Positions 28,129 through 55,000 of a stretch of DNA of 64,000 bases are shown here, piece after piece. This stretch comes from Clostridia bacterium (GTDB lineage Bacteria > Bacillota > Clostridia > Oscillospirales > CAG-272). Position 1 is the stretch's first letter. Each line of letters opens with the position of its first letter. The stretch lies in assembly GCA_017472305.1 (NCBI GenBank), contig JAFUQP010000020.1:114697-178696 (forward strand), written 5' to 3'. A model generated the notes under the pieces. That model was given only the letters and a program-made list of their open reading frames with translations, did no database searches and was not told where the DNA came from. Made by a program: the position numbers and the translations under genes.

Positions 28129-31100
28129 TCAAAGCCAGCCGTCCTCGTCGGCGTTGCCGCCCTTGCCGAAGAAGTCGCCGTCGTCGTCAGAGGGGGTGAC
28201 CAGCTCGCCGATTATCTTGTCACAGTAATCGCATCGGCCGTTTCTGACCTCGTCTACGTGGCCCGGGCAGGTTTCCTCGGTGTAGTAGTCGCTGCCGCAC
28301 ACGTCACACTTGGTGTCGGTGTCGGTGTCCTTGTGTCCCGGGCAGGTTGCCGCGGTGTAATAGGTCGTTCCGCACCTGTCGCACTTGGCGTCACGGTTCA
28401 GGTCTACGTGTCCGGGGCAGGTCGCCTCGGTGTAGTAGGTCGCGCCGCACAGGTCGCACTCGGTGTCGCCGCCCTCGTCTACGTGACCCGGGCAGGTTGC
28501 TTCGGTGTAATAGGTTGTGCCGCACTTATCGCACTTGGTGTCAAGGTCGGTGTCTAGGTGGCCGGGACAGGTCGCCTCGGTGTAGTAGGTCGCGCCGCAT
28601 ACGTCACACTTTGTGTCACCGCCCTCGTCTACGTGACCCGGGCAGGTTGCTTCGGTATAATAGGTCGCGCCGCACCTGTCGCACTTGGTGTCAAGGTTCT
28701 CGTCAAGGTGACCCGGGCAGGTTGCCTCGGTGTAGTAGTCGCTGCCGCATACATCGCACTTTGCGTCGGTGTCGGTGTCCTCGTGTCCCGGGCAGGTTGC
28801 TGCGGTGTAATAGGTTGTACCGCACACGTCGCATACGGTGTCAAAGTCCGCGTCCTTATGCGCGCACTGCTCGGGGTTGACATTCGCATAGCCGAGGAAG
28901 AGGTTATCAATCGAGAGTGATGCCTCGGGCTGATTTCCAAAGAGGTAAAGGAATGCGCGGTCAGTCCAATTTTTGCCCGTTCTGTCAATGCAGTTTGCGC
29001 CGCTGATTTCAACGTCCTCAGAGCCGTTAACCGATACGAAAACGCCGAGGTTGTTTGCCTTGCTGACGGTAAACTGATAGTAGTGAGCGGTGATACGGAT
29101 ATTGTACCACTTTCCTGCTTCAAGCTGTGGTAGTCCCAGAAGGGGCGTGCTCGCGGCATTACCGAAGTATACCTTGCCGTCGGAAATCCAGAGTGTTATC
29201 TCTATTTCCTTACCGCTGTTACAAAGTGTAATCTTGCCGAATTTGCCTTCCGTTCCTATACCGTCAAGGCGGATATCCGCCTCGAAGATGCTCGTCAAAT
29301 ATTCGGGAGCGCCACTTAAGGTTGGGTAGGTGATATAAACGTAGCTATCGCGCGTAGCATTCTCGACATTCGAAATCTTGTAGTGGTAGCCCGTGTACTC
29401 TCCCGTTGCACCTGCCGCCAAGCCGTCAGACTTTGTAATTCCGCGGCTGTCGTTGAAGTCCTTGCCTTCGCCGGCTACAGACTCGAGCTCGCCCGTGAAG
29501 TACGAGCCCTTGCCGTTGTTCTCGTCTGCCTCGGGGATGGTCGGCTCAACGTAAGCCTTATCCACGTAGCCAAAATAGAGGTTATCAAGGCACATATACG
29601 CCGCTTCCTCGAGCTTATGTAAATAAATGTTTACTCTATCACTCTTTTCGGCACGGTTATTAACGTTTGTTACGTTGATATCAACGACGTATTCGTTGTT
29701 GAGGAATACCTTGATTTTTGCCATTGCGGGGGAGAGGGTCGCATTCTTGTAGTAATACTCAAATCTAAGATTATACCACTCGTCGGGGTTGAGCTTCGGA
29801 GAGCCCTGGTGTGGCTTTGCCGTCTTGTTGCCGAGCATAAGATATCCGTCAACCGAAACTATGCGTATCTCTGCCTCGATACCGCCGCACCAGATACCTA
29901 TTCTCGAGGGAATATCGGTGTTGACGTTACCCATCTTGAAGTCAAACTCGACTATACCGACGGAATTCTCAGCCGCGCTCTCCTCGGGTTGTGCCGAGGG
30001 GTTAAAGTTATAGGTAAGATAGGACTCGTTATTCGTTGCCTGCTTATACCAGAGGACGTAGTCGGACTCGATAAGCTCGACTATTACGTTCTTGTTACCG
30101 CCGTCCTGCGCGGGCTTTGATTCGCCGTTATCGTAATCGTAGCGCTTGCCTGCTGCATCGGAGTTGTAATACTCGCCAAGTCCGCCTGCCTTGTCCCCCT
30201 CGGTGACTGTCGGACGGGTTGCGGGAAGCCAGCCCTCTATAAGCTCTGTTTCGTGCTTCTCGTCGTCCCTGCCCATATAGATATTATCTATCTCGAGGCG
30301 GCAGGACTCGACCGAGCCGTCAATCTCAATAAGACCCTTCGTCCAGTTCAGGTCGCTAAAGGACTCGTCGCTCGCGCCGTACTCGCCGACGTATTCGCCG
30401 TTGATATAGACCTTACAGAAGTTGAGCATAGTATCTCTGTAATACTCAAATCGCAGGGTGTTCCACTCGAACTTTTTAAGCTCTATGGACCGATTTTCAG
30501 AAAGCGAGAGGTTACCGTTTGCGTTATAGTATAGGTAGATTGAATAGAATCTGCCGCCGCCACCGTACATAGAGAGGCGAACGACGTTGCCCACCGTCTG
30601 TCCCTTCCAAATCTTGAAGTCACCGTAGCGAAGGTCAAATTCCATCACGTTACGGGAGTTTGTGCTCTTACCTGCGGGGAATACTCCGACGTAGCAGTTG
30701 TCACCCGAGGTAACTCTGCCGAGAGAGAGCACGCCCTCATCAACGTAGCCGTAGCCCCAGCCTTCCTTTTCAAGCGAGTTAATATCGGTGTCGAGCTCAA
30801 CGCGCCAGGTTTCGTCAAGGTTAGTCTCGGCGTTTCCTTCCTCGAAGTTCTTGACGCCCTTGCTCACAGCACCGGTCTTGACTATCGTGCCAAGATTTTC
30901 CATAGTGTGAAGGAAAAGGAGCTTCTCGGCATCGCCGAACATCTTGAAGGTATATTTGCTTGCGCCCATTGACTGGAATATGTATGAAAGAACGCTCGAC
31001 GAGGAAAGAGAGGTCGAGTTCACGTCGCCCTCGTTAATGCCCGACACGGCAACCGCCGCGCCCTGAGAGCCCGAGGAGTTCATATTGTACTGCCAGGAGA

Positions 31101-32889
31101 AGGAGCCGTCGTTCTTTCTGAACTCGAGGGCAAGGGACATCGTCTGCCTTATCTGCTCGGGGGCTTCTGCCTTGACGAGCGCGATAATCTCCGCGACAAC
31201 AGCGTTACCCTCCTTGCCGCAGTCGTTCATAGTGTTTATAATGTTGGTGATAGCCGCCCAGGGGTTATAGAGATGGCAGGGGGTTGAAGCGTAATATTCC
31301 CTGCCTCTGCCGTTGGGGTCGCCCGCAAACATACGCATATTGTTCTCGAGTATGCCCTTTGCAGCGGTAAGCGCATAGGGGATAGGTCTGCCCGAGTTAA
31401 CGTAGAGGCTGCCTATTTTCAGATATCCGTTGACCGCCTCGTTGTTCAGGGTGTCACTCCACATACCCGTAGTGGGATTTATAATTGAGTCGAAGAAGTC
31501 GAGAGCCACGTTAAGAAGCTTCGCCGCCCTAATCTGCGATGCCTGTGCCGCTATGTGGTTACCGTAATCGTAGGAGTTTCCGGGCGACCAGTCGAAGGAC
31601 TCGAGATACGCCCTGAACGCCGCCTCGCTCTTAAGATGCGAGGGAGCTGCCGTAGCAACAACCTTAGACGCAAGCAGAGCCGCATTAGCAGAGCCTCTGC
31701 CTCCGAGAGGCAGGGACACGGGTGTAGCAAAGCCGTCGTCCTCGGGGTCGTAGACCTCGCCGTTAAGTCTGTCGGTCGCGGTGGGATAAAGCGGCTCTTC
31801 ACCGAAGTCGGAAAGCAGGCGCTCCGCCCAGTTGAGGTCTCTGCCTCGGCGAGCGTCGTTTACACCGCTTTCTGCCCACTGCGGATGGTAGAAATAGCCG
31901 TCGTAGGGGTTCTGGAGCGATTTTGTGAAGGAAACCATATCCTCAACAAGCCACTCGGGAAGCTCACCGCGGCTGATTACGCCCGAGTTTGCAAGGAAGC
32001 CCATTGCCTGATAGGTAGACTCAATGTCGGGTAAGAAGCCGTCGGTATCTCTGCCCGAATTCGAATAGTAGAAGCCGCCGATATCGGGGTCGTAGAGGTT
32101 GGCTATCCACGTAACCATATCGGGAGTGTAGATTGAATAAATCGCGTCAAGCGCTTCAAGTAGCGCATCGGTTTCGGCATCGTCGCCGAGGTATTCTCTG
32201 AAGGCAGCCTTTTCTGCCGCCCTCTCCTTTGCGTCCTCTGCAAGAAGGTACTTATAAAGGCCGAAGGACTCTTTCTTCAAAGTGCCAGAGCCGAGGTAAA
32301 TCTTGCCGCCTGTGGGGGTGAGAAATTCCTCGGTTAAAAGGTTCAAAACGTACTCACGCGCAAGCTCGTTTGAATAGGCTACGGCAATAGAATTTCCGTC
32401 GGAGTATATCGCATAGCCTGCGTATTCGGGCTCGTTATAGTCAAGGCGCGAGAGCGCGCGGTATGCCTTCCGCGACAGCTCGCGGTCACACTCGCCTATA
32501 ATAATCTCGTGAGCGTAGGGCGCGACCTCGGGAGAGTCGCCGCGAAGATCATTGCCGGTAACCTCGGAGAGAACTCCGCCGAATGAGTCGTCGGATATCT
32601 GTTCGCGGATTGACTGCTCGGCTATGAGGTAAATCTGGGTACCCGACTCGGCAAAGAGCGTGCCCTGCGGGGTGCTTGAGCTGCCCGAATCGCCCGAGCC
32701 CGTGTTGTCCGAGCCTGAGTCACCGTTTCCTGCGTCACCCGAGCCTGTGTCGGTGCTGCCGCCCGAGGAATCCGACGAGCCGCCGCCCGAGGAATCTCCC
32801 GAGTCTGCACCGTTGCCTATACGACAGCTGCATAGAGCTATCATAAGCGTGAGCAGAAGCGCGAGGAGTAGTAGTAATCTGTTTTTCAT
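28129..32889 (-). CDS. Giant lipoprotein, cassette 1: toroid + three LamG-like modules + Cys/His repeat stalk + Trp tail
   Basis: The protein is 1586 residues. The signal peptide ends at a lipobox with lipid-anchor Cys at about 22 (ALCSC), followed by a Ser/Gly/Asp-rich linker (23-75). A small alpha/beta domain (about 77-205; HEIIIGECDRELS, YAIYSDGNSIAVAYS) resembles GH20-domain-2-like modules. An alpha/alpha-toroid-like domain (225-665) has LYDPDIGGFYYSNS, LPDIEST, RRGRDLNWA, NPTTGMW and NEGDVN. Three concanavalin/LamG-like modules follow (about 690-1340), then nine 25-residue Cys/His repeats (1342-1565). The protein ends GKGGNADEDGWL, matching the 44-aa peptide of the same cassette. A surface glycan-binding or glycan-active protein is a reasonable guess, but no catalytic residue is established. 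Confidence 0.85.
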   Translation of the reverse strand: MKNRLLLLLALLLTLMIALCSCRIGNGADSGDSSGGGSSDSSGGSTDTGSGDAGNGDSGSDNTGSGDSGSSSTPQGTLFAESGTQIYLIAEQSIREQISDDSFGGVLSEVTGNDLRGDSPEVAPYAHEIIIGECDRELSRKAYRALSRLDYNEPEYAGYAIYSDGNSIAVAYSNELAREYVLNLLTEEFLTPTGGKIYLGSGTLKKESFGLYKYLLAEDAKERAAEKAAFREYLGDDAETDALLEALDAIYSIYTPDMVTWIANLYDPDIGGFYYSNSGRDTDGFLPDIESTYQAMGFLANSGVISRGELPEWLVEDMVSFTKSLQNPYDGYFYHPQWAESGVNDARRGRDLNWAERLLSDFGEEPLYPTATDRLNGEVYDPEDDGFATPVSLPLGGRGSANAALLASKVVATAAPSHLKSEAAFRAYLESFDWSPGNSYDYGNHIAAQASQIRAAKLLNVALDFFDSIINPTTGMWSDTLNNEAVNGYLKIGSLYVNSGRPIPYALTAAKGILENNMRMFAGDPNGRGREYYASTPCHLYNPWAAITNIINTMNDCGKEGNAVVAEIIALVKAEAPEQIRQTMSLALEFRKNDGSFSWQYNMNSSGSQGAAVAVSGINEGDVNSTSLSSSSVLSYIFQSMGASKYTFKMFGDAEKLLFLHTMENLGTIVKTGAVSKGVKNFEEGNAETNLDETWRVELDTDINSLEKEGWGYGYVDEGVLSLGRVTSGDNCYVGVFPAGKSTNSRNVMEFDLRYGDFKIWKGQTVGNVVRLSMYGGGGRFYSIYLYYNANGNLSLSENRSIELKKFEWNTLRFEYYRDTMLNFCKVYINGEYVGEYGASDESFSDLNWTKGLIEIDGSVESCRLEIDNIYMGRDDEKHETELIEGWLPATRPTVTEGDKAGGLGEYYNSDAAGKRYDYDNGESKPAQDGGNKNVIVELIESDYVLWYKQATNNESYLTYNFNPSAQPEESAAENSVGIVEFDFKMGNVNTDIPSRIGIWCGGIEAEIRIVSVDGYLMLGNKTAKPHQGSPKLNPDEWYNLRFEYYYKNATLSPAMAKIKVFLNNEYVVDINVTNVNNRAEKSDRVNIYLHKLEEAAYMCLDNLYFGYVDKAYVEPTIPEADENNGKGSYFTGELESVAGEGKDFNDSRGITKSDGLAAGATGEYTGYHYKISNVENATRDSYVYITYPTLSGAPEYLTSIFEADIRLDGIGTEGKFGKITLCNSGKEIEITLWISDGKVYFGNAASTPLLGLPQLEAGKWYNIRITAHYYQFTVSKANNLGVFVSVNGSEDVEISGANCIDRTGKNWTDRAFLYLFGNQPEASLSIDNLFLGYANVNPEQCAHKDADFDTVCDVCGTTYYTAATCPGHEDTDTDAKCDVCGSDYYTEATCPGHLDENLDTKCDRCGATYYTEATCPGHVDEGGDTKCDVCGATYYTEATCPGHLDTDLDTKCDKCGTTYYTEATCPGHVDEGGDTECDLCGATYYTEATCPGHVDLNRDAKCDRCGTTYYTAATCPGHKDTDTDTKCDVCGSDYYTEETCPGHVDEVRNGRCDYCDKIIGELVTPSDDDGDFFGKGGNADEDGWL
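28207..28866 (-). repeat. Nine tandem 75-bp coding repeats (25-residue CPGH...CDxCG units)
   Basis: The unit is CPGHxDxxxDxKCDxCGxxY followed by YTEAT. The first unit begins CAH and is one residue shorter; the last diverges after CDYC. Each unit has three cysteines and a histidine spaced like a zinc knuckle, plus an Asp-rich loop (DTDTDAKCD) that could bind calcium. Asp/Asn, Val/Leu and Lys/Arg choices alternate between units, so the array is old enough to have drifted. Its period is coding, so it is not a CRISPR or DNA satellite. Confidence 0.95.
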
Positions 32890-32915
32890 ATCAGTAGCTT
32901 TCCTTTCTTAACCGT

Positions 32916-32941
32916 AGATGTAAGGCACGCGCCTTGCATCT
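32916..32941 (-). other. Intercistronic hairpin in cassette 1
   Basis: Minus-strand AAGATGCAAGGC and GCCTTACATCT form an 11-bp stem with one G-U around a 4-base loop. It lies in the 107-base gap between the cytoplasmic toroid gene and the giant lipoprotein gene, just ahead of the latter's ribosome-binding site. No U-run follows, so processing or differential stability is more likely than termination. Confidence 0.5.
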
Positions 32942-32996
32942 TAAGGCTGCTGACAAGCGTGAATTTTCACGCGAAATGTAAATTTCGGTTTACAAA

Positions 32997-34241
32997 TTAA
33001 AGCTTAAGCGCCGACTCGAACATTTCGTACTCGCGTGCGCCGAAGAGCTTCGGGTATCCCTTTAGCTCGAGAGCCATATAAATATTGCCTATGATGCCCG
33101 TGGTGCTGATGCAGGTGCCGTTGACGTCGCCCTCGTTGGTGCCGGGAATGCATACGGGTGCCTGCTGGGAGCGGGGACAAGCCTGGTGAGGCATATAGGA
33201 GAAGGAGCCGTCCTCTTTTCTGAAGAGCATAGCCTTCGGGATTGAGCCGAGGATTGCCTCGGGAGCCATCAGAGTGAGCTTCTTAAGTATTTCGTCTGCG
33301 CGCTCATTTTCGCCAACGCGGCGAAGCGAATTAAGTATATTTCTTATAGAGAACCAGGTGTTATAGAGGTGGCAAACGGTAGTTCCCTTCTCGTCGGACT
33401 TCAGAATGTTCATTGCCGATTCTGCGGCGAGCTCGGGCATATTGATTTTAAGTCCTGCGTTAATGTAGAAGGACGTAATCTTCATAAAGCCGTTGATGCC
33501 GTAGTGCATATCGCTCTTTTTGTTCCAGAGTCCGTTCTCGGGGTTCTGATAGCGGTTGAGGAATTCTGCACAGGTTTCGGCAAGGCCTGCGGCTTTAATC
33601 TGCTGTCCTTGAGCCGCAACTGTGTTGCCCGCAAAGTAGGCGTCGTCAATCCAGTCAAAGGTATCGAGATATTTAATGAAAGCCTCGCGGGACTTAAGAT
33701 GCTCGGGCAGGGGTGCCTCGCGCTTTTCTTCGGCGGCTGATGCCATAAGAGCCTTAAGGCGCTCGTTTGCCGTGGGGTAAGGGAGCGAGAAGCCGAGTCT
33801 CTCGGCTATACCGCACGCCCAGTTCATATCTCTGCCGCGACGGGAGTCAACGATATCCTTGCCCCATTGAGGGTGGTAAATAAAGCCGTCGTCGGGGTCC
33901 TGTAGGCTCTTGGTGAAGCGCTCAATTCCCTTACGCATTTTCTCGGGCAGCGCCATTGCGGAGTTAATCATTCCCGAGTTCTGAATAAAGTTCATCGCCT
34001 GCGCGGTAGACTCAATATCGGGAAGATAAGGCTCGTTATCCCTCGCGGAATTGGAGTAGTAGAAGCCGCCAATCTCAGAGTCATAGAGCCCCGCAAACCA
34101 ATTTGCAAGGTTGTCGGAATAATTCGAGTAAAGCTCCTCGAGAGCCTCTGCGACGGCTACGCCGTTACCGCCACGCTCGTTTACAGCGAGGATAATGTTA
34201 GACCATTTTTCATTAAAATCAATTTTATTTGCCATTTTCAT
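32997..34241 (-). CDS. Toroid protein without signal peptide, cassette 1
   Basis: The 414 residues consist almost entirely of the alpha/alpha-toroid-like domain found in the giant lipoprotein. Shared landmarks are NWFAGLYDSEIGGFYYSNSA, LPDIESTAQAMNF, HPQWG, SRRGRDMNWA, NPENGLW, TVCHLYNTWFSI and PGTNEGDVNGT. The QNPxxGLW and DGSFSY elements recall the QW-type repeats of toroid enzymes, but no DxDD motif of class II terpene cyclases is present. No signal peptide, lipobox or membrane segment is visible, so it is probably cytoplasmic. It lies 107 bases upstream of the lipoprotein gene. Two start codons (MKMAN) are possible and neither has a strong ribosome-binding site. Confidence 0.8.
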   Translation of the reverse strand: MKMANKIDFNEKWSNIILAVNERGGNGVAVAEALEELYSNYSDNLANWFAGLYDSEIGGFYYSNSARDNEPYLPDIESTAQAMNFIQNSGMINSAMALPEKMRKGIERFTKSLQDPDDGFIYHPQWGKDIVDSRRGRDMNWACGIAERLGFSLPYPTANERLKALMASAAEEKREAPLPEHLKSREAFIKYLDTFDWIDDAYFAGNTVAAQGQQIKAAGLAETCAEFLNRYQNPENGLWNKKSDMHYGINGFMKITSFYINAGLKINMPELAAESAMNILKSDEKGTTVCHLYNTWFSIRNILNSLRRVGENERADEILKKLTLMAPEAILGSIPKAMLFRKEDGSFSYMPHQACPRSQQAPVCIPGTNEGDVNGTCISTTGIIGNIYMALELKGYPKLFGAREYEMFESALKL

Positions 34242-34270
34242 TTACCAAGCGCTCTGCGCTATATGTCATA

Positions 34271-34466: not shown

Positions 34467-36473
34467 TTATTCGGCAGCTATATAATCACAGTAAACGTTG
34501 TCAAGAGAAATGCTGTCGCCGCTAGCTACGTAAAGAAGCGTACGCTCATACGAGCTAGAATTTGTCTTGGGGTGAGTGAAGTTTACGTTACCAAGTGAAA
34601 TTCCGTTCACAGTCAATGCAAAGGCATCACTACCACTATTAAAGTCATATTCTATTCTAACATTATACCAAGTATTCTTTGCCAAATAAATATTGCTGCT
34701 ACCAATCCTAATGAAACCGTCAGAACTGTTGATAGTCAGTCCTTTTCTCGCAGTTCCGTGGTCTATGTAAAGTATAGCGTTTCCAGAGCCGGATTGTGTC
34801 CAGTTATTAAATTTGATATCCATTTCAAGGACATACTTTGCACCTTCTGTATAAGAATTGGCTGTAACCCAACGGAGATAAGAACCATCCCTTGCAGAGG
34901 TAACGGTCGCGGTGCCATCGTCGTTGATTATAGCACTTGCAATACCACCATTGCTATTTTCCGTCTTCATTACTGTTGAGCAGTCGAAGTTAACATCATT
35001 AACGTTCGCACCTTGTCCGCGCGCATAATCACCATTTGGAAGGAATCCGATTACAAGGTTGTCAAGTTCAACGGAAATATTATTTACATTGGGAACGTAA
35101 ACGTTAACCCTAGTATTAGTCCAGCTTCTAGTTTGGGTGTTAACTATTTTAACATCATCGTATTCAATACCGTTTACCATAATCTTGGTAAGAACATTAT
35201 TCGCCTTTGCGGTAGCGAGTTCATACTCCATTGAGAAGTTATACCAAGTATTTGCTTCGAAGCTCGGCATTCCCGCTATTGCGGTATAAGTATATCCATC
35301 GGTGCTATTACCTGCCCTAGTAACAGGAACGAACTTGCCGTCCTGCACCTGAAGATAGAATTCAGCACCCAGCTTGTTGGCACAGAACTCGAAGAATCTC
35401 CATACCGTACCCTCGGGCATCTCGGAAAGCTTAAATTCAAACTCGAAGAATGCGATTGAGTTAATAAGAGTAGCACTATGTGCAATAACGTTGGCGTATC
35501 TTTCGTTTGTAGTCGTGGTTGTAGCAATCTTGAGTACACCGTCTTCTATGATAGCCGTTGCGCCTGCATCAGCTACATCCATAGCGGGGGCACTACCGCT
35601 GGAATAATCTTTTTTAGTACCAAGAATAGCATCGTTGTTGAAGAACTTGCCGCTACCCGCCTCAAAGCCTCTTGTAGGTTCAGCTTTTACGCTACCGTTG
35701 ATAGTATAATTTGAATTGTTAGCTACGAACACGGGAGTGCCTTCGACGATTTCATAGTCGTCGCCGACGGAAAGAGGAGTTACGATAAAGCCGCCTGCGT
35801 TGCCTGTAAGGGTGACGGTTGTTCCCTTGGGAACTATGCCCTTTGTAAGACCGGATACAGTGCCGCCCTCGATAGTTGCGAACGCATAATCAGAGGGAGC
35901 GAAGCCTGCGCCGTAGTTTTCAAGCACCTTCTGTACGGTATCGCCGGTTTCGAGCATAAGCGAGTAGAGCTTCTTCTGCTCTGCACTATTTACACTGTCA
36001 AACATAAACTGTCTTTCGTAGAGATACTCAAGTACCGAGTAGGAGAGAGAGGCGCTCTCTGCAGCCTTGGTGTTGTCTGCGTTATAAACTACTGCCTTAG
36101 CGGTTACGGTGGTAGCCATATTCTTGAGAGGAATACCGGGGGTGTAGTATACGGGAAGCTTACCGAAGTCCTCCTCGCCTACTACAACGTTATAGTCCGT
36201 GGTTTCAAAGTCGGATACGGTGAAGGCTTCGATTGATTCGTCAACGGGGTTGAATGCCGAGCCCTCGATTACTACGTACTGACCGTCTGCAAGACCTGTA
36301 CTCTTAACGGCGTACATTATCGAGATAGAGCCGCCGTAGGAAACGTTCTGCGCTACTATCTCAACTGCGGGCTCCTCGCCCTCTGCCATAGTGCCGATAC
36401 CGAACGCTGCGCCGATTACGAGGGCGAGGGTAAGGACAAGCACTAGAATTTTAGAAAATTTGGTGTTTTTCAT
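34467..36473 (-). CDS. Secreted LamG-like protein, cassette 1
   Basis: The protein is 668 residues with a Sec signal peptide (1-30, cleavage near TMA/EGEE). It has no lipobox, LPXTG or C-terminal anchor. An N-terminal domain (about 35-150) contains YSVLEYLYERQ, a motif shared with its paralogue at 49524-51587. A second region (about 170-260) includes SYTINGSVK-like beta strands. Two concanavalin/LamG-like modules follow (about 275-480 and 490-665), each ending in LDN-(V/L)-Y/V strands. A carbohydrate-binding or adhesive role is likely from the fold, but the ligand is unknown. It is 62 bases downstream of the 44-aa peptide gene and probably co-transcribed with it. Confidence 0.8.
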   Translation of the reverse strand: MKNTKFSKILVLVLTLALVIGAAFGIGTMAEGEEPAVEIVAQNVSYGGSISIMYAVKSTGLADGQYVVIEGSAFNPVDESIEAFTVSDFETTDYNVVVGEEDFGKLPVYYTPGIPLKNMATTVTAKAVVYNADNTKAAESASLSYSVLEYLYERQFMFDSVNSAEQKKLYSLMLETGDTVQKVLENYGAGFAPSDYAFATIEGGTVSGLTKGIVPKGTTVTLTGNAGGFIVTPLSVGDDYEIVEGTPVFVANNSNYTINGSVKAEPTRGFEAGSGKFFNNDAILGTKKDYSSGSAPAMDVADAGATAIIEDGVLKIATTTTTNERYANVIAHSATLINSIAFFEFEFKLSEMPEGTVWRFFEFCANKLGAEFYLQVQDGKFVPVTRAGNSTDGYTYTAIAGMPSFEANTWYNFSMEYELATAKANNVLTKIMVNGIEYDDVKIVNTQTRSWTNTRVNVYVPNVNNISVELDNLVIGFLPNGDYARGQGANVNDVNFDCSTVMKTENSNGGIASAIINDDGTATVTSARDGSYLRWVTANSYTEGAKYVLEMDIKFNNWTQSGSGNAILYIDHGTARKGLTINSSDGFIRIGSSNIYLAKNTWYNVRIEYDFNSGSDAFALTVNGISLGNVNFTHPKTNSSSYERTLLYVASGDSISLDNVYCDYIAAE

Positions 36474-36535: not shown

Positions 36536-36670
36536 TTACACCCATCCTGAGGGGTCTACGTTTCCTCCACCGCCGATGTCATCAGCTCCGGTCGGTGTTG
36601 AGGTGGCTATGAGGTCGTTAGCCTGAAAAATCACCGCCTCGATTTTTGCGGGCTCATACTTCTTTTTCAC
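36536..36670 (-). CDS. 44-residue Trp-tail peptide, cassette 1
   Basis: A GTG-started frame with a good AAAGGAG ribosome-binding site. It begins (M)KKKYEPAKIEAVIFQ, continues NDLIATSTP, and ends GGGGNVDPSGWV. It aligns over its whole length with the 44-aa product at 51660-51794 (xVxFxxxDxIATSxP in the middle). Its last 12 residues match the C-terminus of the giant lipoprotein of the same cassette (GKGGNADEDGWL). There is no signal peptide in the normal sense: the N-terminus is basic but the hydrophobic part is only about 5 residues. It is the first gene after a promoter (36790-36819) and precedes the secreted LamG-like gene. Its function is unknown. Confidence 0.8.
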   Translation of the reverse strand: MKKKYEPAKIEAVIFQANDLIATSTPTGADDIGGGGNVDPSGWV

Positions 36671-43338: not shown

Positions 43339-46167
43339 CTATTTTGAGAGCTTCTCGCGAAGGAAGGCTCCCGTATAGGATTTTTCGCACTCCGCAACCT
43401 CCTCGGGTGTGCCTGTAGCAACTATAGTTCCGCCGCCGTCGCCGCCCTCGGGGCCGAGGTCGATTATATAGTCTGCGGTCTTGATGAGGTCCAAATTATG
43501 CTCTATTACTATGACGGTGTTTCCGCTGTCGGCAAGCCGTTGCAGAATCGATATCAGCTTCGACACGTCCTCGGTGTGCAGTCCCGTCGTAGGCTCGTCG
43601 AGAATATACGCGGTTCTGCCTGTCGAGCGCTTTGCAAGCTCGGTTGCAAGCTTGACTCTCTGCGCCTCGCCACCCGAAAGAGTAGTTGAGGACTGACCGA
43701 TTTTTATATACCCGAGTCCAACGTCGAAGAGCGTTTGCAGCTTTCTTTGCAAAGCGGGAAGCCCGTCGAAGAAGGTTATTCCCTCCTCTACTGACATTTC
43801 AAGCACGTCATAGATATTCTTGCCCTTGAATTTTACGTCGAGGGTGTCGCGATTGTAGCGCTTTCCCTTGCAGACGTCGCACTTGACGTAAACGTCGGGC
43901 AGGAAGTTCATTTCGATACACTTGACTCCGTCGCCCTCGCACGCCTCACACCTTCCGCCGCGTACGTTGAAGGAAAATCTGCCTGCGTCATAGCCCTTTG
44001 CCTTTGCGTCCTTGGTCTGTGCAAAGAGGTTTCTTATATCGGTGAAAAGTCCCGTGTAGGTTGCGGGGTTAGAGCGCGGTGTTCTGCCTATGGGGCTTTG
44101 GTCGATTGCTATAACCTTGTCAAGGTGCTCAAGTCCCGTGATTTTGTCAACCTTGCCGGGGTAGGTTATCGCGCGGTTAAGGTCGCGGGCAAGGGTTCTG
44201 TAGAGTATCGAATTGATAAGCGAGGATTTTCCGCTTCCCGAAACTCCCGTAACAGCGGTAAAGGTGCCGAGCGGAATATCAACGTTAATGTTCTTAAGGT
44301 TGTTTTCCCGAGCACCGATAATCGAGAGCTTCTCACCGCTGCCGCGCCTTCTCTCGGTCGGTACCTCTATACGTCGTCTGCCCGAAAGATACGCACCCGT
44401 TATCGACCTTTCGCTTGCGGCTATCTCCTCGGGAGTTCCGGTTGCGACAATCTCGCCGCCGTGAATTCCCGCACCGGGTCCTACGTCAACTATGAAATCA
44501 GCCTCGCGCATCGTGTCCTCGTCGTGCTCGACGACTATTACGCTGTTTCCAAGCTCGCGCAGATTTTTGAGAGTGTTAATAAGCTTTCCGTTATCGCGCT
44601 GATGAAGTCCTATGCTTGGCTCGTCAAGAATATAAAGAACTCCCGTAAGTGCCGAGCCTATCTGCGTGGCAAGCCTTATTCTCTGTGCCTCGCCGCCCGA
44701 AAGCGTGCCTGCGGTGCGGGCAAGGGTAAGGTAATCGAGTCCGACGCTGATAAGGAAATTGAGCCTTGCCTTGATTTCCTTGAGGATTTCCTTGGCTATC
44801 TTCGAGTCGCTCTCGGAAAGCTCCAGCCCTTCAACGAAGGATAGCATTTTATCTACCGATAGACGGCAAATCTCGTCTATATTAAGTCCACCGACGGTAA
44901 CACCCAGCACCATATCCGAGAGCCTTCTGCCCTTACAGCGAGGACAGTCGACCTCCTCAACGAACTCCTGATAGTAGTCGCCGCCCATCATTTTCATACG
45001 CTTTTCAATGATATGGACTATTCCGTCAAAGGTTGTGGTCTGAAGCTTCGAGGTCTTGTCAAAGTACCTGGTTACCGTATATTTCTTGTTCGGAACGCCG
45101 TGCATAAGCGCGTGCATTGCTTCCTCGGAATACTCCGAGAGCGGTGTATCGAGGGTGAAACCGTAATCCTCTCCGACTGCCGCAACGAGAGGCCCTGTCC
45201 AGGACTCCTCGGTCATAGTCTTGAAGCCGTTGACGGCAATTCCGCCGTCGCGCAGGGATAGCGAGAGATTGGGGATAAGCTTCTTCTCGGATATCATCTG
45301 CATATTGCCTATTCCCGCGCACTCGGGGCAGGCGCCTATCGGGTTGTTGAAGGAGAACATTCTCGGCTCGAGCTCGGGGAAGCTTATTCCGTGCTCCTCG
45401 CAGGCATATTTCTGCGAAAATTCCAGCTCCTCACCCTCGCTGCCGTCACGCTCAACTGTGAGCACTGCCACCCTGCCGTCGGCAGCCTTAAGCGCCTGCT
45501 CGACCGAGTCGGAGAGTCGCGAGCGGATATCCTCGCGAAGCACAAGCCTGTCAACGATAATATCTATATCGTGCTTGACGTTCTTATCGAGAGTGATATT
45601 CTCGGTGAGGTCATACATATTGCCGTCAACGCGGACTCTTGCATATCCCGACTTTCTCGCGTCGGCAAAGACCTTCTCGTGCATACCCTTCTGCGCTCTT
45701 ACTATCGGTGCGAGGACCATAAAGCGAGTGCCCTCGGGAATCGAGAGAATTCTGTCTACTACCTGGTCGAGTGACTGTTGCTTGATTTCCTTACCGCATA
45801 CGGGACAGTGAGGCACGCCGACTCTTGCGTACAGTAGCCTTAAGTAGTCGTAAATCTCGGTTACTGTTCCTACGGTGGAGCGAGGGTTTTTCGAGGTGGT
45901 TTTCTGGTCTATGGAGATAGACGGCGAAAGTCCCTCGATAAGGTCAACCTCGGGCTTGTCCATCTGTCCGAGGAACATTCTCGCATAGGACGAGAGGCTC
46001 TCGACAAAGCGCCTGTGCCCCTCGGCATAGAGCGTATCGAAGGCGAGCGAGGACTTGCCGCTACCCGAAAGCCCCGTCAGAACGACGAGCTTATCTCTCG
46101 GAATAGTCAGGTCTATATTTTTTAAATTATTAACTTTTGCACCTTTAATGACAATATTTCTTGACAT
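43339..46167 (-). CDS. uvrA: Excinuclease ABC subunit A
   Basis: UvrA recognises DNA damage in nucleotide excision repair. The 942-residue length is normal. The two ABC-type ATPase halves have Walker A motifs [20 protein letters not shown] and [16 protein letters not shown] and signature LSGGEAQR twice. Zinc sites CPVCG and CPRCKG ... CEACEG are present. The gene lies 134 bases downstream of uvrB. The intergenic bases show no gene or clear terminator. Confidence 0.98.
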
Positions 46168-46301
46168 TTTGCGCTATTTTCTTCCTTTTCTTATGCTTTG
46201 TTGCAGGCGGTTGAAGTTTGAAACCAAAAGAGCTTACACCTGTATCGGGCGCGATATCAAAGTTAGCATTAACGCGGAAAGCTCGTGGCGCTGGCACTCC
46301 G

Positions 46302-48257
46302 TCAGCCGCGTAGCTCCTTTATTCTGTCGCGAAGGTATGCAGCCTTCTCAAACTCGAGTGTACGAGCCGCCTCGCGCATTTCCTTAGTAAGGCTTTCTAT
46401 CATTCGGTCGCGCTCAAGGCGAGTAAGCTTCTTTTTCTTCTCGGGCTCTGCCTTTCTGCCGATTTCGATAATGTCGCCGACCTTCTTTCTGACGCTCTCG
46501 GGAGTTATGCCGTGCTCCTCGTTATAGCGCTTCTGTATCTCGCGGCGGCGATTTGTTTCCTCTATCGCTCCGCGCATTGAGCCTGTCACGGTATCGGCAT
46601 ACATTATTACGTGACCGTTGACGTTACGCGCGGCACGTCCGACGGTCTGTATGAGTGAGGTTTCGCTTCTGAGGAAGCCCTCCTTATCGGCATCAAGGAT
46701 TGCGACGAGCGATACCTCGGGTATATCAAGTCCCTCTCGTAATAGATTTATTCCGACAAGCACGTCAAACTCTCCAAGCCGAAGGTCGCGTATTATCTCC
46801 ATTCGCTCCATAGTTTCGACCTGGTGGTGAATGTATTTTACCTTTATTCCGTGTGTGGAAAGATACTCGGTAAGGTCCTCCGCCATATTTTTGGTCATTG
46901 TTGTGACCAGCACCTTCTCGCCGCGCTCTGTCGTGCTTCTGATTTCGCCTATGAGGTCGTCAACCTGCCCCTCAATCGGGCGCACGGATATCTCGGGGTC
47001 GATAAGTCCTGTCGGGCGGATAAGCTGCTCTACGGTGCTCGAGGACTCGCGGCGCTCGTATTCGCCGGGGGTTGCGCTGACGAATACCGCCTGCCTAATC
47101 TTTTCCTCAAACTCCTCAAAGAACAGAGGTCTATTGTCAAATGCCGAGGGCAGACGGAAGCCGAATTCGACAAGATTTTTCTTTCTTGCATAGTCGCCTC
47201 CCGACATTCCGCGCACCTGCGGAAGCGTTACGTGCGACTCGTCTATAAATATGACATAATCGTCGGGGAAATAGTCAAGAAGCGTAAAGGGGGTTGAGCC
47301 GGGGGCTCTTCCCGAGAGAACGCGCGAATAGTTCTCGACACCCGAGCAGAAGCCTACCTCGCGGAGCATTTCAAGGTCGTATTTCGTTCTCTCCTCTATT
47401 CTCTGCGCCTCGATAAGCTTGTTTTGCGAGCGGAAGAATTCAACGCGCTCGCGCATCTCCTCTTCAATCTCGAGAAGCGCCGCCTCACGGCGCTCGTCGG
47501 ACACGGCGTAGTGAGTTGCGGGGAAAATGCACACGTAGGAGAGATGCTCGGTAGCCTCGCCGGTCAGGGGATTAATTCTCGAAATTCTGTCGACCTCGTC
47601 ACCGAAGAATTCAATGCGGAAGGCTGTATCGTTTCTCGACGAGGGGAAAATCTCAACCACGTCACCGCGAACGCGGAATTTGTTTCTGACAAAATTAACG
47701 TCGTTGCGCTCGTAGCTTATCGACACGAGCCAGCGAATGAGGTCGTCGCGCGAAAGCTCCTGCCCCTCTCTCACCGACACTAGAAGGTCGTGGTACTCTC
47801 TCGGGTCACCGAGGGTATAAATGCAGGACACCGAGGCAACGATAATCACGTCGCGCCTTTCGAATAGCGCAGAGGTCGCGCTATGACGAAGCATATCTAT
47901 CTCGTCGTTAATCATTGCGTCCTTCTCGATATACATATCCTTACCGGGGATATACGCCTCGGGCTGGTAGTAGTCGTAGTAGGACACGAAATATTCGACG
48001 GCATTGTCGGGGAAGAAGGAGCGAAACTCGGTGCAAAGCTGCGCCGCGAGTGTCTTGTTATGCGCGAGAACGAGCGTCGGTCGATTGACGTTAGCTATGA
48101 CGTTAGCCATAGTGAAGGTCTTACCCGAGCCTGTTACGCCGAGAAGGGTCTGCGCCCTCTCGCCCGCCATAATTCCCTCGGTCAGGGCGCGAATTGCCTC
48201 TGGCTGGTCGCCTGTTGGCTGATATTCACTTTTCAGTATGAATTTTCCGTCCTGCAC
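46302..48257 (-). CDS. uvrB: Excinuclease ABC subunit B
   Basis: UvrB receives damaged DNA from UvrA and recruits UvrC. The 651-residue protein has Walker [16 protein letters not shown], the damage-probing beta-hairpin region [12 protein letters not shown], the DEAD-like helicase core ([11 protein letters not shown]), helicase motif [13 protein letters not shown], and a C-terminal UVR motif (about 615-650). It is upstream of uvrA on the same strand. I looked for a LexA box upstream and saw none. Confidence 0.98.
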
Positions 48258-49447: not shown

Positions 49448-49458
49448 TGCAAAGAGTA

Positions 49459-49492: not shown

Positions 49493-49523
49493 TTATTGTG
49501 CTTTTATCTGCATTTTTACTAAA

Positions 49524-51587
49524 TTATTCAGCAACGTAATGAACTACAGATGCGTCGTCAATGTAAACGTTAGAGGCAACAGATGCATCGGCAACCTTAT
49601 AAAGGTTTGTCTGAACGAACGTCACAGTAGTGGGATCAATTTCCGCTGCCGCATCGCTCGTTGCAACGGTAACACCGTCAACAATAACGTTTACGGTTGC
49701 CTTATCTCCCTTGTTGATATACTCTATACGGAGATGGAACCAACCGTTCTCCGAGGCAACGTTTTCTACAGTAGATAATCCTGAGTTAGCGCTGTTCGCA
49801 ACTGTCAGATAGCCTACGCGAACTTCTTGTGCCGGGTTGGCTGCGGGGAATTGTGCATCGTAGCCGTAGAATACGAGCTTAATAGACGAAGCTCCCGCAA
49901 GATTGAATTCAAGATTCTGCTGCTGAGCCGCGCCGCAATCAAACTTAACGTATGCATCAAATGCCACTGCGTTAGCTCCGCTTTCGCTCTTTATCGCATA
50001 TATTCTCTTATCGGTACCACCGCTTGTGAGCGAGGTTACCTTATATACGTCGGAGTTTCTGTCATCGTCGTGTACTATTTCAGAAGAGGAAACGTAGGGG
50101 GGAGTCAGTCCATTCTCAAAGTCTGCGAATGCGGGAGCCTCGGTTTTGCACTGCTCTACAAGCACGTTATCGAAGTATGCCGTTACTGCAGTAGTATCGC
50201 CGCTGTTTCTGAAGAAGGCAAAGAGGGTATCATCTGCACCTGTGTAGTGCTTCGAGGTGTCGGCTGCATAATAAGGAGTATATGCCACGGTCGCAAGAGT
50301 TCCGTTTACGTATACCGAAATGTACGCGTCCTTTGCAACACCGTTTGAGGGTGCGTAGTTGTAGTCGGTAAGAGTGTACTCGATACGAAGGTTGAACCAC
50401 TCGCCCTCCTTTGCCGACGTTGTAACGGTGGACTCGTTTTTCGTGGAGCCGTCGTTATACTGGTTGAATATCTTGATAGCCCCGCCCTCTGCAAACTGAA
50501 GGAAGATATCGCAGGCAGGTCCCTTTGAGCCGTAGGGCTGAATATGAACGAGCTTATCACCCGCAGCATTAACAACGTCAAGCTTAATATCGGTTTCAAA
50601 AGCGAAGGTATTAGCTCCCGCAAGCTTCTTGGTAAGGTCGAAGTAAAGCTCGGCGCTTGCCGCGTTGTTCGATGCGTTATGAACGAGTACGTTTCCGCGC
50701 TCGGAGTCCTGTGCAATGGTAAGATATCCTTTGGTTCCATTAGCTCTTACGGGGATACCCGTGCCGCTTGCAATGTAGTCGTTTACATTCGAGCTTTCCT
50801 CAAAGTCGTAAATATAGCTCGGCTCGATTACCGTATTGGCATCAATAATCACAGTGCCGCCGGCAGCTACAACCGTCTTGGTGGACGAGCCGTTGGGTGC
50901 ATATTTCCTTACAGCCCACTTTGAAACGTTAGCAACTGCGGGAAGGGTTACGGTTCTGTCAGCAGCTGCGACGTCGGGGTCGTAAAGGCGAGAGTAGTTT
51001 GCGCCGTCGAGAGTGCCTGTCGAGATATATGCATAGTATAGAGAATTAACGAGAGCGTCGGTCTTGTAGCCGAATGCCTTCTGCGCCTTTACTCCGTAGT
51101 TCACAAGTGCCTCACCCAGCTCCGCCTTCTCAACAGAGAGGTCGGTGGTATAAAGCATCTCGTAGAGATACTCGAGAACGCTGTACTCAACGAGCGAGCC
51201 GTAGGTTACCTCGGTGTCGACGATATGAGGAACTGCGTAGATAGTATCGCCTATTGCCTTTGCGGGAATGCCAAAGGACTTAAATACGGCAAATTCGGGA
51301 TTTGGGGTATAAGTCAAGGTAGAAGCCTGTGCCTTAAATACTTCCGCCTCGGAGTTCACTCTAGGGTCCTCGGCATAAAGAAGAACCTCAAGCTCATCGC
51401 CCTCAGTGAGGGTGCTGTTATCTACCGCAAAATAGAGGTAGGTCTGATCGCCGAAATATGCATTCTTTGAAATAATTTCGGGCGAAGCCTCGCCCTCGGC
51501 AGATACGGTGACGCCTATTGCCAAGCAAAGAAGAAGCACGACCGTAATAGATGCCAACAGAATTTTAACGAGTTTTGTGTTTTTCAT
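49524..51587 (-). CDS. Secreted LamG-like protein, cassette 2
   Basis: The protein is 687 residues with a signal peptide ending near TVSA/EGEA and no lipobox or sortase motif. It is paralogous to the 34467-36473 product. Both start MKNTK, share the N-terminal domain with SFGIPAKAIGDTIYA-like and YSVLEYLYE motifs, and carry two concanavalin/LamG-like modules (here about 270-470 and 490-685). The C-termini are also alike (HYVAE here, DYIAAE there). It lies 72 bases downstream of the cassette 2 peptide gene, with an AAAGG site. A carbohydrate- or protein-binding surface role is likely; the ligand is unknown. Confidence 0.8.
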   Translation of the reverse strand: MKNTKLVKILLASITVVLLLCLAIGVTVSAEGEASPEIISKNAYFGDQTYLYFAVDNSTLTEGDELEVLLYAEDPRVNSEAEVFKAQASTLTYTPNPEFAVFKSFGIPAKAIGDTIYAVPHIVDTEVTYGSLVEYSVLEYLYEMLYTTDLSVEKAELGEALVNYGVKAQKAFGYKTDALVNSLYYAYISTGTLDGANYSRLYDPDVAAADRTVTLPAVANVSKWAVRKYAPNGSSTKTVVAAGGTVIIDANTVIEPSYIYDFEESSNVNDYIASGTGIPVRANGTKGYLTIAQDSERGNVLVHNASNNAASAELYFDLTKKLAGANTFAFETDIKLDVVNAAGDKLVHIQPYGSKGPACDIFLQFAEGGAIKIFNQYNDGSTKNESTVTTSAKEGEWFNLRIEYTLTDYNYAPSNGVAKDAYISVYVNGTLATVAYTPYYAADTSKHYTGADDTLFAFFRNSGDTTAVTAYFDNVLVEQCKTEAPAFADFENGLTPPYVSSSEIVHDDDRNSDVYKVTSLTSGGTDKRIYAIKSESGANAVAFDAYVKFDCGAAQQQNLEFNLAGASSIKLVFYGYDAQFPAANPAQEVRVGYLTVANSANSGLSTVENVASENGWFHLRIEYINKGDKATVNVIVDGVTVATSDAAAEIDPTTVTFVQTNLYKVADASVASNVYIDDASVVHYVAE

Positions 51588-51659
51588 TTTTCTTCCTTTC
51601 GTAAAGTTTTGTTTACTTAATTATGGATATTTGCGGATTTCTATGCGTCCGGCACACAA

Positions 51660-51794
51660 TCAAGTGTGCTTCGGTGTCCAGTCACCTGCTCCGTCCTCCT
51701 CGCGATAAGGCGACGAGGTGGCTATGACATCCCCTTCGTCAAAACGCACTATGCTAAGCTCTGTTTTTTCGTAGGGTGCTTTTGACTTTTTCAT
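51660..51794 (-). CDS. 44-residue Trp-tail peptide, cassette 2
   Basis: An ATG-started frame with an AAAGGAG site, encoding a product beginning MKKSKAPYEKTELSIVRF, continuing GDVIATSSP and ending GAGDWTPKHT. It is the same length as, and alignable with, the cassette 1 peptide at 36536-36670. Its C-terminal part, SPYREEDGAGDWTPKHT, matches the end of the giant lipoprotein in this cassette (SPYPEDAIGGWTPPRT). No true signal peptide is visible. It precedes the secreted LamG-like gene. A 76-codon frame overlapping it in another register (51754-51984) looks like a shadow. Confidence 0.8.
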   Translation of the reverse strand: MKKSKAPYEKTELSIVRFDEGDVIATSSPYREEDGAGDWTPKHT

Positions 51795-51809
51795 ATCCTT
51801 CTCCTTTCC

Positions 51810-51823
51810 CGAAGTATACTTCG
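51810..51823 (-). other. Leader hairpin of the cassette 2 peptide mRNA
   Basis: The perfect palindrome CGAAGTATACTTCG lies just before the ribosome-binding site, in the same position as the (different) hairpin of cassette 1. Further upstream, up to 52045, there are hairpins GTGCGC/GCGCAC (51970-51984) and a longer imperfect one near 51985-52014. I found no confident promoter. Confidence 0.55.
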
Positions 51824-52045
51824 TTTTTATTTAGCAATTCATTTGCATTTTTCCTTTCCTTTGCAGAGAAGACGAAATTTTTACCGAATAGCAGGATAGA
51901 AAAATCGTCCTTTGCCATATTATCAAGTGCGAGCCGCAGGTGAAAGGAGCCCCGCGGCATTCGGGGTGTGTGCGCCCCGCGCACTCTCTCTTATCGCAAA
52001 AGCGCTATGAGAGCATTGTTTAAATTCGAAGCGTTTTAATCAGCT

Positions 52046-55000
52046 TCAAGTTCTCGGCGGAGTCCAGCCTCCTATCGCATCCTCCGGATAGGGTGAGTTC
52101 TCCACTGTAGGAGCCTCGTATTCGGGCTCTGACGGAGTTATCGGCTCATCGGGGGTGTCCGGCTGGTCGGGGGTATCCGGCTCGTCGGGAGTATCCGGCT
52201 CATCGGGGGTGTCCGGCTCGTCGGGGGTGTCCTCTACGGCATTAACGAGCGTAAGCCTGAGGTCATCAAAATAGCTATCGGTCGAAACGGTTGAGTAGGT
52301 CAGGAATTTAGCCGTTGTGATTCCGTCAAGCGTAAAGCTGCCCGAGGTTGTTTCCCCGTCTACGCGAACGCCGTTTACGTATATATTAACCGTTCGGTGA
52401 GTGTCGGTTACTCTGTACTCCACCTTAAAGGTGAACCACTCGCCCTCATTTGCCAGCTTACAGCCTGTAATCTGAGAGCCGCCCGCTCTGCCAATTTTCA
52501 CCGCTCCCGCGTTAGCTCCGTTCTTCTGCGCGAAGCTCTCGTCATCGCCATCGTATACGAGAAAATCGAAGCGATATGCATTTCCGAGCCAGAACTCGAT
52601 ACCGTTACTCTGAATTGTGGCGTTGAGCTTCATTTTCGTTTCAAAAATCAGAGTATCTGCATCCCTCTCGCTCTTGTTGAGGGAAAATACGGTTTCGCCC
52701 CTTCCCGTAGTCATAGCGACGGCATATACCATACTGCTTTCGCCGTTTACGTTGTTTCTTATTACGCCCGACTTATTACCTGCGGCTGTTTTCACGCCCG
52801 CGGGAATCTTGCCGTCCTCGAAGGTGTAGCCGTTCGAGAAATCCTTTATGGTGGGAGCGAGCTTATCGCCGGCGCCTGCGACCGTATCGCCTGCATCGGG
52901 AACGGTAGTACATTCCTCAAGCTTAAGATTGTCAAGAGCAAGCTCGACGCTCTCTCCGACGGCAGAGCTTATAACGAACGAGGTTATTGCCACAGATTTC
53001 GGCATATTCAACTCGCTTATAGGGGTATATCCCCTTGCAGCTACCGTACCGTTCAGATATACTCTTATCAGAATGTCGGCGTTTCCGTCGCCGGTATAAT
53101 CAAGTCCCGGATTAAGATACTCTGCTCTGAGCCTGAACTTCTTGTTTTCCTCACCAAGCCTGACCTTGAAGGAGTCCTTCGTGCCTATAAGATAAACCGA
53201 GCCGGCATCAAGGTCTTCACCGACGTATGCCTCATCGGTAACCGTGAGTTTGAAATTGTATACCGCCGCGTTGCCGCTCATCATAGCAAGCGTAACGCTT
53301 GATTTCTTACCGCTCGGAGCATCGAGTGATACATCGGCTTCAAGAGCCGACGTATTGGCATTTTTCTGTCTTGACGTCGGTAAAATTTTAAGCTCGTCTG
53401 CACCCGACTCGGGGCTTTCGAATACTAGCTTACCGCCTGCCGCGTTCGCGCTTGCGCCCTCGGAAAGTTTCGGTATAACCTCGGGTGGAATACCGCCGCC
53501 GAAGGTCAATTCTCCAGGCTCAAGATCGAGCTTGAACTGTTCAACGAAAAGATTATCGAGGTACAAATCGGAATCCGAGCCTCGAAGCGCGCGGAATTCG
53601 AATTTATTCAGGTCCTCGGCGCTCCAGAGCGAGCCTGCTCTGTAGGGCGTGTGACCCATAGCGACGAGATTTCCGTCAACGTAAATTCTGACAAGTATAT
53701 CCGCCTTGCCGTCACCTGTATAATCGTAATCGGTGCAAATATACTCGCATCTGAGTCTGAAATACTCACCGATATCAGCGACACGCATCTGATACTTATC
53801 GCCGCTGTGTGAGAAGAATATCGAGTTGGATTCCCACGCTCCGCTACCCGAATAATCATTAAAGGCGTAAAGCTGGAAGACGTAGGCAAGGTCACCCGAC
53901 GCACAGAAGTTTATATCGTAGGCTGCGTTGCTTTCTCCGTAATTGACGACTTTTACGTCGCCCTCGAAGGCGAAGGCGTTATAATCAGCGCTTCTTGCCG
54001 TTATGAATATCTCAAGCTCATCGGAATCCGTCGGGTGAGGCTTCGAGGTAAATCTCACCGCATAGCCTGCGTTGCCGTCCATAACGTCTTCGACGATGCT
54101 GACGCTCGCACCCGTGGAGTTAAGGCTTGAGTTAAACTCCGGGGGAATTGCTTCGTCCTCGAAGTCAAGCGGCGTGACTTCCTTTTCCTCGTCCTTAATA
54201 ACAGCGCCGAGTCCTTCGAGAATCGAGCGGTATCTTATCCAATCGGCCTCTGTGTAAAGCGGTACGGCATATCCAAGCCCTACCATTTCCATAACGTGGC
54301 TCGAAATACCCATTATCGATATTGACGTCGCGTTAACGTCGCCCTCGTTGGTGTGTCTTACGGCAACCGGCATTCCCTGCGAGGTAGCCGCCGACGAGTC
54401 AAGCTGGAAGGAGAAGGAGCCGTCGTCCTTTGCAAATTTAGCTATATTTCTTACCGTGGTATATACCAGTGTAGGATAATTGTCGTACATATAGCTTTTA
54501 AGCTCGGCAATCTCCTCGATTACCGCCTCGTCCTTCGAGCTGTAATAACGGCTGACGTTCTGGAAAATCAGCGACAGTGCGTACCACGGGTTAAGGAAGA
54601 AGCACACGGTATGAGGCTCTTCAAAATAGATTGCCTCTATTGCCGCCTTTGCCGCCTTCGTTATATTGGGAAGCGGCTTTCCTATCCTTTGATATACGCT
54701 GGTGATTTTAAGCAAGCCGTTGACGCCCTCGTAGTCGACGGTGTCGGTAAGCGTCCAAAGTCCGGTTTTTTGATTTTGGTGGTCGTTTAACCACTTGTAA
54801 AGTATCTCTACAAGGCTGTAGCCTGCGCCCTCCGCCTTCAGCTCCTTATCTCTGTTAGCTATCTGTGCAGCTTGAGATTCAAGAAGGTTTCCGTTAACGT
54901 AGGGATTTTCATTAATGTCTATAGTATCGAGGTATGCCCTGAACGCGCTCTCGCTGCGTAGATGCGCGGGATATTTCGAGGCGCTGTCGGCTGCCACAAC

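Follow-up and report, generated by a model that had tools for sequence, protein, structure and literature searches.

Small peptides of uncultured gut Clostridia often end in the same cassette-specific tail as the neighbouring giant surface protein

We analyzed a window of 64,000 nucleotides from a Clostridia bacterium (assembly GCA_017472305.1, 86% complete; contig JAFUQP010000020.1, positions 114,697-178,696 of the forward strand; GTDB lineage Bacteria; Bacillota; Clostridia; Oscillospirales; CAG-272), in which two gene cassettes each encode a 44-amino-acid peptide and a giant lipoprotein. In many cases the C-terminal tail of such a peptide, specific to its cassette, recurs on the giant surface protein encoded next to it, which gives a testable lead on their function. 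Sequence comparison revealed the pairing of tails, the same residues written in different codons, a conserved leader, and the co-occurrence of the peptides with a gene set resembling that of the linear polyphosphorylated peptides (LPPs). From these we infer that the peptides would be phosphorylated, freed of their leader and exported in trans, and that peptide and lipoprotein, each anchored in its own way, may meet a common partner. The features that carry the pairing are the following (window positions):

36536..36670, minus strand: peptide 1, an LppA-like precursor of 44 amino acids with a GTG start at 36670; leader from Tyr5 to Ser24, then core
36536..36574, minus strand: tail of peptide 1, GGGGNVDPSGWV and stop
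28129..32889, minus strand: giant lipoprotein 1, 1586 amino acids, lipobox recognized by eye
28129..28167, minus strand: tail of lipoprotein 1, GKGGNADEDGWL and stop
51660..51794, minus strand: peptide 2, an LppA-like precursor of 44 amino acids
51660..51713, minus strand: tail of peptide 2, SPYREEDGAGDWTPKHT and stop
52046..56191, minus strand: giant lipoprotein 2, lipobox LSAC recognized by eye; its open reading frame is listed from a GTG at 56239, the ATG at 56191 being the more likely start
52046..52096, minus strand: tail of lipoprotein 2, SPYPEDAIGGWTPPRT and stop

A preliminary description of the window had quoted these four C-termini, which we verified, and had pointed out that they match within a cassette. 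The match was borne out and proved wider than described. We compared the last 28 amino acids of peptide and lipoprotein in a hand-listed set of 15 cassettes of the same genome, namely those known at that stage, with C10 represented by one of its two peptides and two tail-less lipoproteins included. Own pairs had a mean score of 40.9, versus 23.9 for other pairs, a value reached by none of 200,000 permutations, and the own partner ranked top in 9 of the 15 cassettes. The pairing recurred when the search was extended to the whole genome and to relatives. A profile of the toroid domain found in the lipoproteins (described below) led to 69 loci in assemblies (best 80 of 106 matches), all of them metagenome-assembled and recorded as Clostridia, Oscillospiraceae or, once, Ruminococcus; many records name the gut of deer, goat, sheep or yak, and the others give no host. 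These loci, together with regions around further peptides, yielded 76 non-redundant peptides, and for 49 of them an automated rule (the nearest toroid protein of at least 850 amino acids, on the same strand and within 6 kb) could assign a partner. The 49 pairs gave p<=1e-5, as did the 19 of the own genome and the 30 of relatives taken separately, this value being the floor of 100,000 permutations.

A further count agrees with this result. Exact 5-mers common to a peptide's last 22 amino acids and the last 25 of a neighbour on the same strand, no more than 6 kb away, were present for 8 of 150 peptides across all loci, compared with a mean of 0.30 and a maximum of 2 in 300 shuffles. Tails with a Trp (defined as [GSDN]xW followed by no more than nine residues) were found on 28 of the 86 large toroid proteins and on 21 of the 968 other long open reading frames of the same loci, overlapping loci counted.

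Agreement was concentrated at particular positions. Relative to the Trp in 25 tailed pairs, residues agreed above permutation at positions -6 (12/25 vs 3.8), -5 (6 vs 2.1) and -4 (11 vs 5.0), and past the Trp at +1 (15 vs 4.7), +2 (11 vs 4.3) and +3 (10 vs 4.5), where the counts at +2 and +3 include sites at which both tails had already ended. Position -10 showed a weak excess (5 vs 1.6), and agreement at -1, -2 and -3 was not significant. The Ser of the presumed kinase site was not significantly mirrored either (6 of 22 tailed pairs against a permutation mean of 4.2, with 205 of 1000 permutations reaching it; another count, 7/40 vs 7.1, takes in tail-less proteins that have a Tyr close to their end, which dilutes it), and the leader motif occurred in the last 70 amino acids of none of the 22 tailed proteins. 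Given the Ser count, mirroring of the whole core was set aside, and the clearly mirrored part is thus its C-terminal end.

The residues of a pair are often written in different codons. Across 19 well-aligned pairs (the C10 lipoprotein counted twice), 167 residues are identical, and for 94 of them the codon is the same as well, versus 76.8 expected from codon usage. This slight excess fits a common origin or a few recent copies, not general recent conversion; the pairs at loci L032 (8/9 codons) and L081 (7/7) are nearly codon-identical and may be such copies. The preliminary description had suggested that the tails are kept in step by gene conversion or selection. That they are in step stands, and recent gene conversion as the general cause is set aside because the codons differ. 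The match is very probably maintained at the protein level.

Matching ends also appeared on proteins unrelated to the toroid lipoproteins, once within the genus and twice in other families. A survey of all long neighbours brought out L178, in the same genus, where a 1761-amino-acid protein that matches polysaccharide deacetylase and lacks a toroid ends in WDLPWDV and the adjoining peptide in SWDLPWD; the pair scores 66, against a background mean of 25 and maximum of 47. Outside the genus we collected 71 peptides in 64 loci, 70 of which have same-strand neighbours within 5 kb. Three of the 70 scored above all background and two of these, L357 and L367, are convincing; the third, L359, was judged chance-like, its partner lying 4.6 kb off with no common end. 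At L357 an SLH-domain protein and the adjoining peptide both end in EGDNGTGWG (9/9 residues identical, with four synonymous codon differences), beside genes for the kinase, recognition element and peptidase introduced below. At L367 a Ser-rich membrane protein ends in VIELPIITV and two peptides in AIELPIIPVK and NELPVIKD, next to the same three genes and a nucleotidyltransferase (NTP transferase) gene. Exported-looking proteins ending in ELPFVPxx lie near LPP-type peptides at L184:9151-9789, L044:15667-16038 and L084, a second kind of C-terminal end like the ELPII ends of L367. Separately, seven loci of one genome (G028, L171-L177) hold eight closely similar peptides ending DGIWDLD-like or DGIWDFN, some of them adjoining very large secreted proteins; no toroid and no mirrored tail was found there.

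The cassette-specific pairing is thus confirmed as real but not universal, and several observations speak against extending it to every cassette. The last 13 residues of the large protein lack a Trp in 24 of the 49 automated pairs, leaving 25 Trp-tailed pairs. Among the 24, L032 matches nonetheless (VDGYW/VDGYY), and for L136 the rule took the wrong lipoprotein of two; the one with a tail is truncated where the locus ends. Even among the 25 tailed pairs, the own partner came first of 25 in 10; L078 (rank 23) and L121 (rank 13) are plainly mismatched, and L033 and L037 (rank 9 each), L091 (rank 7) and L077 (rank 6) are weak. In the own genome the lipoproteins of cassettes C7 and C30a (2 of the 15) have no tail and do not match their peptides. 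Beyond the genus no overall excess is seen, the mean best neighbour score being 18.4 versus 17.8 for background. Mismatched tails within a cassette, which the preliminary description had named as evidence against its reading, do occur to a degree, in the form of many tail-less lipoproteins and some tailed mismatches.

The preliminary description had missed the nature of the peptides, which look like LPP-type precursors of ribosomally synthesized and post-translationally modified peptides (RiPPs), with a leader, and whose gene set stands elsewhere in the genome. The two window peptides matched nothing in Pfam (E<=1) or NCBIfam (E<=10). Searching the genome with each returned 13 matches apiece at E<=10, and a profile built from 18 peptides yielded 22 matches in the own genome at E<=0.001 and had matches in 27 of the 59 genomes searched, own genome included. 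Many of these peptides have three kinds of neighbour: a large lipoprotein with the shared toroid domain, a separate toroid protein and a secreted one. Their N-terminal part consists of a Tyr, a hydrophobic alternation and then D[VI][IV]x[TA]S, and recalls leaders bound by PqqD-like recognition elements. Among 84 peptides, gathered by a profile of the same leader whose spacing was counted, Ser stands at Tyr+19 in 78 of the 82 that bear the motif; Tyr+3 is Pro in 37/80 and Ala in 37/80, and Tyr+5 is Leu, Ile or Val in 71/80. According to the LPP study (Popov et al., Nat Commun 2026, PMC13381572), the only paper in the literature searched that uses this name, LPP precursors carry the motif YxxPxVLxHQxIxFETxxS, the kinase LppK phosphorylates core Ser3, LppB is the RiPP recognition element (RRE), the SipW-like peptidase LppS cuts after T-1, and the set adds an exporter and an NTP transferase; the discussion there states that the biological role is unknown.

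A comparable gene row is present as a single copy in the own genome, on the same contig and about 17 kb beyond the left window edge: an HprK-like kinase, a PqqD protein, a signal-peptidase-like protein and an NTP_transf_5 protein. The PqqD protein is a discrete RRE, the one stand-alone PqqD match over cut-off in the genome, and is likewise found in the operon where that is linked to a peptide. The kinase P-loop GxGKxTH is invariant in 13 aligned members, 10 of which match ScmC at E<=0.01, and the peptidase motifs GxSMxP, HR and GD (Ser, His, Asp) are invariant in 14, with sigpep_I_arch (archaeal-type signal peptidase I) matching 13/14 and SipW 6/14 at the same limit; the own-genome peptidase lies below the profile cut-off. 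The NTP transferase matches PF14907 (E 3e-41 in the own operon) and occurs also at L367, with no match in the fetched L357 region or the displayed part of L184. Judged by eye, transporter-like open reading frames of 544-622 amino acids adjoin the peptidase in several relatives. The kinase and peptidase alignments gave no sequence match to solved structures at the limits used. Preceding the own-genome row is a PGA_cap/MslH-like gene (L188:9692-10804), at 54.9 bits against a cut-off of 700; Trp epimerization by this neighbour was set aside, no such label appearing in the displayed operon surroundings of L261-L264.

Peptide and gene set go together across genomes. Elsewhere the peptide is encoded directly with the set (for example at L251, L252, L253, L254 and L184), and among the matches listed there are 16 genomes (G000 and G272 excluded) in which no more than 6 kb separate it from the kinase. 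Of 297 genomes of the order, 68 have the peptide, 97 the kinase and 62 both (Fisher p=1.8e-31, a test that ignores phylogeny). With one genome taken for each other family (n=23), the kinase was present in 7/7 peptide genomes and 1/16 others (p=3e-5, computed by hand). Several points count against assigning the peptides to the LPP type. The kinase stands without the peptide in 35 of 97 genomes and the peptide without the kinase in 6 of 68, and the genus itself offers little contrast (19/20 genomes with peptide and 13/16 without have the kinase). The own-genome set adjoins none of the peptides found, and no exporter was seen in it by eye. The Ser falls at Tyr+19 here and at Tyr+18 in the published consensus (PMC13381572), a near-identical spacing. 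The HprK label is weak as well: 6 of the 13 kinases match HprK-related kinase A at E<=0.01 (best E 2.4e-5), none matches a Pfam family, and the own-genome kinase scores far below curated cut-offs. Because of this weak label we trimmed our confidence slightly; that the peptides are LPP-type RiPP precursors nevertheless seems highly likely.

The other members of the two cassettes, and a gene pair lying between them, are as follows:

32997..34241, minus strand: toroid protein of cassette 1, 414 amino acids, without evident signal peptide, sharing its domain with the lipoprotein
34467..36473, minus strand: secreted protein 1, 668 amino acids, with a YG domain; its start lies 62 bases past peptide 1
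49524..51587, minus strand: secreted protein 2, 687 amino acids, with a YG domain
56282..57733, minus strand: toroid protein of cassette 2, 483 amino acids, without a Pfam match at E<=0.001
43339-48257: uvrA and uvrB, between the two cassettes

Lipoprotein 1 consists of a toroid domain, LamG-like domains, CxxC ribbon repeats and the C-terminal tail. The tandem ribbons (CPGHxDxxxDxKCDxCGxxYYTEA) stand ahead of the tail; similar ones occur at L038 and, at lipoprotein ends, at L041 and L043. The toroid domain (NLYDPxxGGFYYSNSARD...EGDVNAT), for which no Pfam match was found over the domain, makes up 32997-34241 and the N-terminal parts of 28129-32889 and 52046-56191, and so occurs inside lipoproteins as well as in a protein that lacks an evident signal peptide. 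Its alignment had no sequence match to solved structures in the PDB at the limits used. Searched by fold, its model (mean pLDDT 91.7) had no match at E<=0.001; the first was a squalene-hopene cyclase (E 8e-3), with GH76 toroids further down the ranking and TM-scores of about 0.3-0.45.

The YG domain, of about 130 residues with the consensus ...YSVAEYLYERLY...LLEYGAAAQAYFGYN, is found in 34467-36473, 49524-51587 and many other loci, and no Pfam match was found for it. The locus lists place a YG-domain protein within 700 bases on the same strand of 82 of 152 peptides (68/80 in the genus, 14/72 outside) and the domain on 123 of 2024 long open reading frames (overlapping loci counted). We treat this adjacency as a lead and not as a test, because the domain seeds were taken from peptide neighbours, which itself counts against leaning on it. 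The model (pLDDT 87.7) shows a beta-sandwich part and a pair of helices; fold search gave none at E<=0.001, the weak matches including many immunoglobulin-like and p53-type sandwiches. Standing beside most peptides of the genus, the YG-domain secreted protein is a candidate partner by position only.

The best overall explanation, to which we give about an even chance, is that an LPP-type core and a lipoprotein share a tail for one partner. The N-terminal 24 or so residues of the peptide would be the leader, whose Tyr motif would bind the PqqD protein; the HprK-like kinase would phosphorylate the Ser at Tyr+19, the SipW-like Ser-His-Asp peptidase remove the leader, and the NTP transferase modify the product further, a single gene set serving some 22 scattered precursors in trans. 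Once exported, the core might be held at its N-terminal, phosphorylated side or diffuse, in either case displaying a free C-terminal tail. The giant lipoprotein, with an N-terminal lipid anchor and a flexible linker, would present a leaderless copy of the same tail at its end. Core and lipoprotein would thereby show the same partner, outside the cell, a single C-terminal ligand specific to the cassette, for docking or competition. The decisive step, that two differently anchored molecules present one ligand to a common extracellular partner, could equally well be right or wrong. The preliminary description had already proposed a tail read by a cassette-specific partner, which fits the recurrence of the pairing across the genome, in relatives and on single unrelated surface proteins; the partner itself we infer.

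Alternatively, the shared tail could be a substrate, one enzyme acting on the C-terminus of both mature peptide and surface protein, for example by joining the two to the same acceptor in the envelope or by modifying their C-terminal residues. The tail does stand at the very C-terminus, after a linker in several proteins, and the residue right after the Trp agrees most often. Passages of PMC8498205 describe HprK-like kinases from lasso pathways as able to act on a Ser at the C-terminus, the rest mattering little, and a gene resembling the C-terminal Trp epimerase family (MslH) adjoins the own-genome operon. A general enzyme, however, would not need cassette-specific tails; Ser or Thr is found among the last three residues of only 33 of 84 peptides, the presumed kinase-site Ser is not significantly mirrored, and the MslH-like gene has the low score and the patchy presence given above. 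We consider this rival unlikely. Slightly less likely still is that the core acts as a diffusible signal or competitor, displacing something bound to the lipoprotein tail in self-recognition or as a release switch. A leader, an exported core and a matching membrane-anchored copy are what a competitor needs, and AraC-type regulators lie near several cassettes (recognized by eye from open reading frame ends), but no receptor was identified and many cassettes have no tailed protein.

Shared history alone, with tails copied between neighbours by duplication or conversion and no selection to match, draws on the slight excess of shared codons (94 vs 76.8) and on the two nearly codon-identical pairs. 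It is improbable, since in most pairs the residues agree although synonymous sites differ, three other protein backgrounds show the pairing as well, and the agreement clusters at certain positions. Chance resemblance of Gly/Asp-rich, Trp-ending tails would account for some high off-diagonal scores, which arise because the tails share a general make-up; the permutations, which preserve it, nevertheless yield p<=5e-6 and p<=1e-5, so that chance is very improbable.

If each modified core and one co-encoded surface protein are indeed matched and offer a single extracellular partner the same C-terminal address, LPP-type peptides might be parts of a surface assembly and not free-standing natural products, a possibility that we put forward tentatively. 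A cell would then hold a dozen or more mutually distinct C-terminal addresses. A core end copied onto a surface protein in differing codons suggests a concrete, testable cell-surface role for LPPs, and many naturally varied ligand pairs become available for binding tests.

Compared with the LPP system, as far as the available parts of PMC13381572 describe it, the peptides share a short precursor with a conserved N-terminal Tyr motif and a highly variable C-terminus, and the gene set shares a discrete RRE, a SipW-like Ser-His-Asp peptidase, an NTP transferase and a kinase that is HprK-like by a weak label; several relatives add the transporter-like open reading frames. They differ in that Ala replaces Pro at Tyr+3 in 37/80, and in that about 22 precursors are scattered beside surface-protein cassettes, apart from the gene set. 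Those parts do not mention a surface protein next door that mirrors the end of a core, and none of the papers listed in literature searches reports by title either the gene set or a surface-mirrored core, most subscription journals lying outside the coverage. Phosphorylated lasso peptides of the paeninodin type, in the portions of PMC8498205, PMC7533575 and PMC10368454 at hand, resemble the system in their YxxP-type leader, PqqD-like RRE, HprK-like kinase and nucleotidyltransferase. Here, a SipW-like peptidase takes the place of the B2 leader peptidase. We rejected membership among lasso peptides because PF13471, the B2 peptidase family, was not found in the own genome (86% complete).

Many precursors scattered in the genome and served in trans by one maturation set are a feature of the prochlorosins; the arrangement is the same here and the enzymes are different, and we know of no mirrored tail among prochlorosins. 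The LPXTG-like sorting signals of Gram-positive surface proteins, a linker followed by a short C-terminal motif, are likewise similar in layout to the exported proteins of these cassettes. In contrast to such signals, neither a hydrophobic segment nor a basic end comes after the motif here; the motif is also specific to its cassette, and the proteins have other likely anchors.

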